From positions 1 through 50,989 of the forward strand of contig JAAYEJ010000011.1 in the NCBI GenBank assembly GCA_012728835.1: a stretch of DNA of 50,989 nucleotides, given 5' to 3'. Position 1 is the stretch's first letter, and each line of letters starts with the position of its first letter. This DNA is from Candidatus Brocadiaceae bacterium (lineage in GTDB: Bacteria; Planctomycetota; Brocadiia; SM23-32). Under the pieces are notes generated by a model, which did not search any database, had not been told where the DNA came from, and saw only the letters and a list, made by a program, of their open reading frames with translations. Position numbers and translations under genes: made by a program. Shown piece after piece: positions 43,180-50,957 of this stretch.

Positions 43180-44793
43180 ATGCACGGCAAACTGATACCG
43201 CTCAAAGGCGCCGAGCACACCGAGGTCATTGAGTTGAGCACCGAATGCCCCGTGGTGTTCGGCCGCGGCGAGTCCTGCACGGTGCGCCTGAGCCAGGGCA
43301 GCGTCTCCCGCCGTCACTGCCGGATCGCCCACAAGCAGGGGTTCTTCACCGTCGAGGACCTCGAGAGCAGCAACGGCACGTGGGTCAATGACCACCGGGT
43401 CCGCAAGGCCCTCCTGTTCCACCACGATCGCATTGCGATCGGCGACGCCGAGTTCCGCTTCGTGCTCGAAGACACGCCCCGCCAGGACGAGGCGGTGATC
43501 CTGACCGGCGACACCGACACACCGCCCTTCGGAACCGAGGTCCGGGCGCCCGCCGGGCCGGCTGCCTCGGGCTCGCCCCTCGGCAAAGGAACCGGCGGCG
43601 ACGACCCGTCCATCGAGGAAGACATCGAGCGCCATCTGTCGGCCGTCTGCCGGGTGATCGACAGCGTCGCCGAGGAACGCAACCTCGACCGCCTGTTCGC
43701 CGCCATCATGGACAACGTCATGGAGGTCATGGGCGCGGACCGCGGCTACCTGATCGCGGCCCGGGAACTCAACGGCGTCCTGATCCCTCTGCTGTGCCGC
43801 TACAGGGAGGGCCTTCCGGCGGCGGCGCGCAACAGCTTCAGCCGCAGCATCGTCGTCGAATGCCACGCCACGGGCGACTCGATCCTGCGGTCGGCACCGG
43901 CGGACCGCGTCGACGCCAGCCTGAGCGTCGTCTCCCAGGGGATCCGCAGCGTCCTGTGCTCCCCCATGCGGGACGGCGAAGGAGCGGTCGGCTTCCTCTA
44001 CGTCGACAACGTCGTCGGCTCCCGGGAGTTCACCGAACGCGACCTGAAGGTGCTGGCGGCCATCGGCAACCAGGCGGGCATCGCCGTCCGACGCGCCCAG
44101 CTCGCCCACCAGGTCGAGACCGTCTTCGGCGACGTCATGCGGTCGGTCCTCCGCCTTGTCGAGTTCAGGGACAGCTACACCTGCGGGCACTGCGAGCGCG
44201 TGACGGCCCTGGCCCTGTGCATCGGCGGGCTGATGCCCGAAAGCCGCCCCGACCGCCGCACCATCGAGATCGCCGGCATGCTGCACGACGTGGGCAAGCT
44301 GGCCGTCCAGCTCGACGTCCTGCAGAAGCCCGACAGCCTCACGGAGTCCGAGTACGAGACCGTCAAGCAGCACCCCGCCGCCGGGGCGGCCATCCTGAGC
44401 AGCGTCGACAACGCGGCCGAGATCGCCAGCGCGATCCGCCACCACCACGAACGCTGGGACGGCACCGGCTACCCGGACGGGCTGGCCGGGGAGGACATCC
44501 CGCTGGTGGCACGCCTCCTGGCCCTCGCCGACGCCTTCGACTCGATGGCGACCGAACGCCCCTACAAGTCCGCGCTGCCCCCCGAGAAGATCCTCGGCGA
44601 ACTGGACGAGGGCGCCGGCACGCAGTTCGACCCCCACCTGGTCCGTCTGGTCATGGACGCGCTGCGCACCGGGGACGCCTTCCGGGAGGAGATTCAGAGC
44701 ATCTACCGCGACGAAGGCGGCATGGACCGGCTCGACGACCTGTTCCGCCGCCCGCGCCCGTCCGGGAGGCAGCGGCCCCTGGTGGACGCTTGA
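43180..44793 (+). CDS. FHA-GAF-HD-GYP signalling protein, probable cyclic-di-GMP phosphodiesterase
   Basis: 537 residues. Cytoplasmic. An FHA domain (about 20-95; FGRGESCTVRL, SVSRRHC, SSNGTWVN) would bind phosphothreonine on a partner of a Ser/Thr kinase. A GAF domain (about 150-305) may sense a ligand. The HD-GYP domain (about 315-520) has His369-Asp370-x-Gly-Lys373, the HHHERWDGTGYPDGL motif (GYP at 430-432) and DAFDSMATERPYK, so the metal ligands look intact and c-di-GMP hydrolysis is likely. ATG 43180 has a weak ribosome site. Two promoters lie upstream. It is followed 4 bp later by a lipoprotein gene, so the downstream genes may be cotranscribed. Confidence 0.92.
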   Translation: MHGKLIPLKGAEHTEVIELSTECPVVFGRGESCTVRLSQGSVSRRHCRIAHKQGFFTVEDLESSNGTWVNDHRVRKALLFHHDRIAIGDAEFRFVLEDTPRQDEAVILTGDTDTPPFGTEVRAPAGPAASGSPLGKGTGGDDPSIEEDIERHLSAVCRVIDSVAEERNLDRLFAAIMDNVMEVMGADRGYLIAARELNGVLIPLLCRYREGLPAAARNSFSRSIVVECHATGDSILRSAPADRVDASLSVVSQGIRSVLCSPMRDGEGAVGFLYVDNVVGSREFTERDLKVLAAIGNQAGIAVRRAQLAHQVETVFGDVMRSVLRLVEFRDSYTCGHCERVTALALCIGGLMPESRPDRRTIEIAGMLHDVGKLAVQLDVLQKPDSLTESEYETVKQHPAAGAAILSSVDNAAEIASAIRHHHERWDGTGYPDGLAGEDIPLVARLLALADAFDSMATERPYKSALPPEKILGELDEGAGTQFDPHLVRLVMDALRTGDAFREEIQSIYRDEGGMDRLDDLFRRPRPSGRQRPLVDA

Positions 44794-48387: not shown

Positions 48388-48463
48388 GGGCCCATAGCTC
48401 AATCGGCAGAGCAGCGGACTCATAATCCGCGGGTTACAGGTTCGAGTCCTGTTGGGCCCACCA
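48388..48463 (+). tRNA. tRNA with CAT anticodon (tRNA-Met, or Ile2)
   Basis: 76 nt including an encoded CCA. Acceptor arms GGGCCCA and TGGGCCC pair fully, the D-arm has AGCTCAATCGGCAGAGC, the anticodon stem-loop is GCGGA-CTCATAA-TCCGC, and the T-arm is ACAGG-TTCGAGT-CCTGT. The anticodon CAT fits elongator methionine; it could instead be an isoleucine tRNA modified to lysidine by TilS. The first pair is G-C, so it is not a typical initiator. Confidence 0.93.
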
Positions 48464-49466: not shown

Positions 49467-49631
49467 ATGCGGAAGTACCGATGCACGGTCTGCAACTACG
49501 TCTACGATCCGGAACTGGGCGATCCGACACAGGACATCTCGGCGGGGACGCCGTTTGAAGAGCTTCCGGACGACTGGACCTGCCCGGACTGCGGCGTGGG
49601 CAAGGACATGTTCGAGCCGGGAGACGAGTGA
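49467..49631 (+). CDS. Rubredoxin
   Basis: 54 residues. Small cytoplasmic electron carrier with one iron bound by four cysteines: Cys6 and Cys9 ([10 protein letters not shown]) and Cys39 and Cys42 ([12 protein letters not shown]). The spacing and the conserved aromatic and DWTCPxC segments are diagnostic. It often serves oxygen and peroxide detoxification or alkane oxidation in anaerobes, but no partner gene is adjacent. ATG 49467 follows AGAGGAG at about 9 nt. A hairpin at 49668-49687 probably ends the transcript. Confidence 0.97.
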
Positions 49632-49667: not shown

Positions 49668-49687
49668 CGACGCCCGGCGGGGCGTCG
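49668..49687 (+). terminator. Hairpin after the rubredoxin gene
   Basis: A perfect 8-bp stem CGACGCCC / GGGCGTCG around GGCG, 37 bp after the stop codon. No T tract follows. Confidence 0.5.
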
Positions 49688-49694
49688 ATCCCCC

Positions 49695-49957
49695 GAAAAG
49701 GAAGCGGGCGGGCCGATGCACGGGCCCGCCCGTACTGCACGCGGTTTCAGCACCGCGCGCCACCACCAGACCGGCGCCACAAGGCGCCGCTGCCCTTGGG
49801 AAGGGCAAGCCATGCCTCCCCGCGGATGTCACAGGTGACCGTGGCTGGCACGCCCACGGGGTCGGCCTGACCGGAAGGCGAAAGGACGATTACTGACCAG
49901 AACTACGCCTCGAAAGATCGCTCTCTCCGGCCACGCCTCACCTCGCGTTACCGCGTT
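49695..49957 (-). ncRNA. Candidate structured non-coding RNA, unassigned family
   Basis: On the minus strand, about 260 nt with its own promoter (49964-49992) and terminator. In transcript order I see GTCAC-CT-GTGAC (about 49831), overlapped by CCGTGG..CCACGG; then TGCCCTT-CCC-AAGGGCA (about 49797-49806), GGCGCC-TTGT-GGCGCC (about 49773-49788), GCGCGGT..ACCGCGTGC (about 49739-49760) and the terminator CGGGCGGGCC..GGCCCGCCCG (49732-49705) followed by CTTCCTTTTC. The surrounding genes are all on the plus strand, so it is not a leader of a minus-strand gene. I do not see the hallmarks of tmRNA, RNase P, SRP or 6S RNA, or of the common riboswitches. A short frame starting with GGGGAGG-C-ATG inside it (about 49813) has no recognisable product. 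This call rests on structure and signals only. Confidence 0.5.
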
Positions 49958-49963
49958 ACCTGT

Positions 49964-49992
49964 ACCATACCCCACCGGCGGCCTCCTGGCAA
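49964..49992 (-). promoter_or_regulatory. Promoter of the candidate non-coding RNA
   Basis: On the minus strand, TTGCCA (49992-49987), a 17-bp spacer and TATGGT (49969-49964). The transcript would start near 49957. Confidence 0.55.
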
Positions 49993-50033: not shown

Positions 50034-50061
50034 TTGCGCCGCCGGCACCTGGGAGCATAAT
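50034..50061 (+). promoter_or_regulatory. Possible promoter of the TIM-barrel gene
   Basis: TTGCGC (50034-50039), a 16-bp spacer and CATAAT (50056-50061), about 65 bp before the start. The match is modest. Confidence 0.35.
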
Positions 50062-50126
50062 GGACGGTCCGGCGGCGGCGGGTGCCGCACGGGACAGGGC
50101 GTCTTCCACCGGAGGAGCGGCGGACC

Positions 50127-50957
50127 ATGGGTTACGCGGTGATCATGCACGTCAACTACTGCGAGCAGGGCCAGACGGTCGAGGAAATCTGCCGGAGGGC
50201 CGCCGGATGGGGCTTCGACGGCGTGGAGTTCCGCAGTCGGAGGGACTCGGTCGACGAGACGCCCGAGCAGTACATGGACCAGATCGAGGCGGGCGTGGAG
50301 GCGTCGGGACTCCGACAGGTGGTCTTCGGGTCGCCCGGACCGGCGCTGATCAAGCCGGACGCCGCCGAGCGCGCCCGGGAGGTCGAGACGGCGATCGCCT
50401 TCTATCGCCAGGCGTCCCAGCGGTTCGGCGTCCGCACCTGCAATCTGGTCACCGGCTGGCTCGGCATCGGCGAACCGGTCACGGAGGACCACTGGAAGTG
50501 GCAGGTCGAGGGCTGCCGCCGGCTGGCGGACGGCCTGCAGGACGTCGACATCCGCTTCGGCTTCGAGACGCATCGCGGCTACGTCCATGACAAGATCGAG
50601 TCGACCCGCCGGCTGGTGGAAGACGTCGATCGGCCCTCGATCGGCGCCAACCTGGACTACGGCAACATGGTCGGCCAGGAGGACCGGCCGACGCTCGAAG
50701 AGGCGATCAGGGCGTTCGGCACGAAGCTCCACTACGTGCACCTGAAGAACTCCGCGCCCATCCGGCGCGCCCAGGCGCGCGTCTCCACGTCCCTGGGCGA
50801 GGGCGAGATCAACAACCGGGAGTTCGTGCGCCTTCTGAGGCAGACCGGCTTCACCGGCCCGATCTGCGTGGAGGCCCCGCGAGCCGGCGACCGCGAGTGG
50901 TTCGCCCAGCAGGACCTCGCCTACATCCGGGCCGTCCTGCGTGATCTGGGCGCCTGA
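50127..50957 (+). CDS. Sugar phosphate isomerase/epimerase-like TIM-barrel protein
   Basis: 276 residues. Xylose-isomerase-like TIM barrel (AP endonuclease family 2 superfamily), which includes sugar isomerases, epimerases and inosose dehydratases. Landmarks are WGFDGVEFRS near the N-terminus, a metal-site Glu in FGFETHRGYVHD, GANLDYGNM, LHYVHLKN, and GFTGPICVEAPR (Glu) near the end. The metal-ligand pattern Glu, Asp, His, Glu is thus present. Substrate cannot be told. ATG 50127 is preceded by GGAGGAG. An in-frame start at 50082 would lie upstream of that site. Its promoter region faces the non-coding RNA promoter. Confidence 0.8.
   Translation: MGYAVIMHVNYCEQGQTVEEICRRAAGWGFDGVEFRSRRDSVDETPEQYMDQIEAGVEASGLRQVVFGSPGPALIKPDAAERAREVETAIAFYRQASQRFGVRTCNLVTGWLGIGEPVTEDHWKWQVEGCRRLADGLQDVDIRFGFETHRGYVHDKIESTRRLVEDVDRPSIGANLDYGNMVGQEDRPTLEEAIRAFGTKLHYVHLKNSAPIRRAQARVSTSLGEGEINNREFVRLLRQTGFTGPICVEAPRAGDREWFAQQDLAYIRAVLRDLGA

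Follow-up and report, generated by a model that had tools for sequence, protein, structure and literature searches.

A candidate small RNA gene on the minus strand between rubredoxin and TIM-barrel genes of a Candidatus Brocadiaceae bacterium

Promoter and terminator signals in the intergenic gap

In a 50,989-nucleotide stretch of DNA from a Candidatus Brocadiaceae bacterium (hereafter the window), a rubredoxin gene and a xylose-isomerase-like TIM-barrel gene are separated by a gap of 498 bp, and the candidate RNA lies within this gap on the minus strand (Table 1). The TIM-barrel gene might also start at an ATG one codon upstream or still further ahead. With a promoter that diverges from the TIM-barrel gene and an end that faces the end of the rubredoxin gene, the candidate has the layout expected for an independent gene; its sequence is present as a single copy in its own genome.

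Table 1. Features in and around the gap (positions in the window; folds are single-sequence predictions)
Feature	Position	Strand	Basis	Remark
Rubredoxin gene	49467..49631	+	Pfam PF00301, E 4e-25	Tail to tail with candidate RNA
Palindrome CGACGCCCGGCGGGGCGTCG	49668..49687	.	Sequence	Between candidate RNA end and rubredoxin gene
Terminator-like hairpin	49696..49732	-	Terminator scan	10 GC pairs, loop 8, tail CTTCCTTTTC
Hairpin with stem GCGCGCGGU/ACCGCGUGC	49732..49766	-	Predicted fold	
Hairpin CGGCGCC-UUGU-GGCGCCG	49772..49789	-	Predicted fold	
Hairpin UGCCCUU-CCC-AAGGGCA	49790..49811	-	Predicted fold	
5' domain	49821..49955	-	Predicted fold, z -2.44	Closing stem CGCGG/CCGCG, AGGUGA/UCACCU
Sigma-70-type promoter TTGCCA-17-TATGGT	49964..49992	-	Promoter scan	9/12 consensus positions
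Possible TIM-barrel promoter TTGCGC-16-CATAAT	50034..50062 (approximate)	+	By eye from sequence	8/12
Xylose-isomerase-like TIM-barrel gene	50130..50957	+	Pfam PF01261, E 2e-33	Divergent from candidate RNA

The sigma-70-type promoter named in the original prediction was recovered by our scan, and transcription of the candidate is expected to start at about 49957 on the minus strand. In the same genome, the tmRNA gene carries a perfect TTGACA-17-TATAAT promoter and the RNase P RNA a perfect TATAAT about 16 nt ahead of its matched start. Thus, such promoters precede stable RNAs in this genome. At the SRP gene, a site of the TTGACA/TATAAT kind was looked for and none was seen. The TATGGT of the candidate is, judged by its letters, an imperfect and weaker version of the tmRNA and RNase P signal. 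Around the predicted RNA start (49943-49960, minus strand), GGTAACGC occurs in two tandem copies, and close to the TIM-barrel gene start (50130-50140) there is a near copy in inverted orientation, GGTTACGCGGT; these repeats could be the site of a regulator or could be due to chance. The possible promoter of the TIM-barrel gene, divergent from that of the candidate, is weak and falls under the scan threshold. It is flanked by the operator-like inverted repeats CGCCGCCGG/CCGGCGGCG (50037-50077).

At the other end of the candidate, the terminator-like hairpin starts 232 bases downstream of the promoter, spans 49732-49705 as CGGGCGGGCC-8-GGCCCGCCCG and is followed by CTTCCTTTTC. It has the highest GC content among the three hairpins listed for 48.5-51 kb; its T-tract is interrupted, with 6 T in 9 bases (CTTCCTTTT). 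A transcript bounded by these signals would be about 262 nt long (49957 to 49696). The original prediction had also assigned the rubredoxin gene a hairpin of its own. The palindrome on that side is real by sequence, but it has a T-run on neither side and in the plus-strand reading is followed by ATCCCCCG rather than T; on that strand it is therefore not an intrinsic terminator of the canonical kind. Apart from this point, the argument that had placed the RNA on the minus strand proved sound.

Scanning the 51-kb window, we found 13 promoter-like and 4 strong terminator-like places (3 minus, 1 plus), and the candidate was the only place on either strand of the whole window where a promoter and a strong terminator followed each other in order at a distance of 80-500 nt. 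Among 4000 dinucleotide shuffles of the gap, a promoter this good appeared in 110 (2.75%) and a terminator this good in 43 (1.1%), and both signals in order in none. Because the window has some tens of gaps from which a reader had picked the candidate, a correction for this choice is due; even with it, the joint chance of the ordered signals stays small. Judged by consensus, the candidate has its own promoter and terminator in the correct order, as a stand-alone intergenic sRNA gene should.

Predicted fold and coding potential

Over the whole 262 nt, the minus strand folds with a z score of -3.99 against shuffles and the plus strand with -2.26. The predicted minus-strand fold consists of a branched 5' domain followed by at least four more hairpins including the terminator, so that scanning and folding together returned the promoter, hairpin chain and terminator in the order originally described. 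Within the predicted 5' domain, a long irregular arm carries an open, AU-richer loop around TAGTTCTGGTCAGTAATCG (49887-49905); CCGUGGGCGUGCCAGCCACGG forms a side hairpin. The 3' half is predicted to form three compact GC-rich hairpins and then the terminator. The loop has no second match at up to 3 mismatches in the window.

As a background, we folded 390 tiles of 260 nt (195 positions on both strands; mean z -0.24, sd 1.36). The candidate ranked second of the 390 (z -5.9), behind a minus-strand tile at 44236-44495 (z -6.1) that runs antisense to part of an HD-GYP-like gene and presumably owes its score to the composition of GC-rich codons. Since antisense strands of genes reach equal z scores, fold stability alone is not diagnostic in this window, and we rejected fold energy as sole proof of an RNA gene.

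Minus-strand open frames of 99-127 codons exist in the gap, the longest of which cross the rubredoxin gene in antisense. They do not show the codon-position GC pattern of the neighbouring genes, in which the second position is low and the third reaches 0.83-0.93, and none matched a Pfam family. This lack of a coding signal is what would be seen at a stand-alone sRNA gene.

Known RNA families and related genomes

Against Rfam, the candidate had no match at the gathering level and nothing convincing up to E 10, which agrees with the earlier statement that no hallmark of a known RNA class was recognised in it; in the whole window, the only match at the gathering level was a tRNA at 48388-48460. 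RNase P, tmRNA and small SRP RNA were each found once above their family thresholds elsewhere in the genome, the lower-scoring tmRNA matches being of tRNA length. These three are stable structured RNAs like the candidate, and RNase P and tmRNA share its promoter type; they differ from it in their location.

No Rfam match to 6S RNA was obtained in the own genome or in eight genomes of the same family (together G000-G008), where this RNA has either been lost or diverged beyond the Rfam model. In one genome of the same order, 6S RNA lies directly before rarA; in the own genome, the surroundings of rarA held no recognisable 6S. Upstream of this gene, we considered a rod-like fold as the missing 6S and dropped it (z +0.9, no Rfam match). 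On a same-family contig, four matches to the Acido-Lenti-1 RNA family lie downstream of rarA (L124:3024-3491). Three of them, above threshold and about 120 bases apart, are on the plus strand; the fourth is weaker and on the minus strand.

Conservation of the candidate was sought at several levels. With blastn, 147 relatives gave only matches of 18-45 bases, which lay in other places and corresponded to various, scattered parts of the query. We then used two covariance models, one per half and each built from a single sequence. The source itself was the sole credible match of the 5' model among the 147 relatives (8 of the same family) and of the 3' model among 58 relatives. Run on 392 phylum genomes, the 5' model gave one borderline match (G179, E 0.008 per genome). 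This match is contained in an rpoA-like gene, the product of which reads as RNA polymerase alpha subunit, and was rejected as chance; a weak match in G084 (E 0.22) was likewise at chance level. Neither a rubredoxin gene nor the candidate RNA was found alongside TIM-barrel homologues (35 loci and relatives), the candidate was absent from the loci of rubredoxin homologues, and in related genomes no match to it preceded the closest TIM-barrel homologues. Searches for mobile origins gave no blastn match in phages and plasmids, no exact core pattern in viral contigs and no mobile-element terminal inverted repeats bounding the stretch. Thus, the conservation in relatives that the original prediction had put up for checking was not borne out, with no homologue from which covariation could have been read in the 8 same-family or the several hundred phylum genomes. 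Between genera, intergenic sRNAs have often been lost or can no longer be recognised. Because the nearest genomes compared, including the 8 of the same family, belong to other genera, the absence of homologues is at most weak evidence against the candidate and does not refute it.

Readings of the locus

The best reading, to which we give about an even chance, is a lineage-specific, stand-alone gene on the minus strand for a small non-coding RNA of about 260 nt. This reading is favoured by the ordered promoter and terminator, by the better folding of the minus strand, and by the lack of a coding signal, the single copy and the absence of a known family. Against it stand the missing homologues, the imperfect promoter, the interrupted T-tract and the equal fold scores of antisense strands. 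For the orphan minus-strand RNA gene first proposed, the orientation, promoter, structure, terminator, missing coding signal and lack of an Rfam match all speak in favour; support from a homologue did not come from the genomes searched.

The main competitor, possible but clearly less probable, is untranscribed or incidental GC-rich intergenic DNA, in which palindromes close to where the flanking genes end coincide with a promoter-like site by chance. The absence of conservation (147 relatives and 392 phylum genomes; 58 for the 3' domain), the formation of hairpins on both strands and the equally good folding of other tiles in this GC-rich window agree with it; the order and joint excess of the signals and the asymmetry of folding between the strands do not. 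The plus-strand orientation of both neighbours and the folding of the palindromes on either strand would also fit a plus-strand element, either a leader of the TIM-barrel transcript or a 3' untranslated region of the rubredoxin gene. We regard this as improbable, given that the plus strand folds less well, that neither a promoter nor a terminator of the quality scanned for lies on the plus strand of the gap and that no match was found upstream of the closest TIM-barrel homologues. A small protein gene on the minus strand, for which the open frames speak, has the slightest chance of all, as these frames show neither codon-position GC bias nor a Pfam match and the longest of them overlap the rubredoxin gene in antisense.

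A further rival, weak and very unlikely, is that the candidate is the strongly diverged 6S RNA of its family and regulates RNA polymerase. The two share size class, intergenic position and a sigma-70-type promoter, a 6S match seems to be missing from the family but exists in one same-order genome, none was found beside rarA in the own genome, and the side hairpin on the 3' side of the arm in the 5' domain loosely resembles the 6S central bubble. In contrast, the candidate did not score with the 6S model (RF00013) at E up to 10, and its predicted fold, compared with the same-order 6S, is branched, lacks the single rod with a central bubble and adds a 3' hairpin array. Moreover, a housekeeping 6S would be expected throughout the family, yet the sister genera searched gave no match to the candidate. 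Equally unlikely would be a new, genus-restricted class of structured RNA, housekeeping or regulatory, that may replace the 6S not found in the family.

If the small RNA gene reading holds, a housekeeping sigma factor would transcribe the candidate from about 49957 to about 49696, and the RNA would comprise the branched 5' domain, the 3' array of GC-rich hairpins and an intrinsic terminator at its end. It would most likely act as a regulatory RNA in trans, either by binding a protein or by pairing with targets through the exposed loop of the 5' domain, the part of the predicted fold that would most obviously serve for it; this mode of action is a guess. The candidate resembles intergenic trans-acting bacterial sRNAs in its intergenic position, own promoter, structured body and terminator, and its size falls within their range of 50-400 nt. 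As a predicted gene, it differs from the members of this class in having no counterpart in Rfam.

On sRNA or 6S in planctomycetes, our literature search returned general works only, among them what is reportedly a survey of 104 candidate structured RNAs (PMC2864571). Orphan sRNA candidates are common in bacterial genomes, and one that comes without conservation or expression raises no general question. The candidate would add one member to a very large known kind and, if transcribed, would represent a small RNA gene not registered so far, from a phylum in which regulation by RNA has been little studied.
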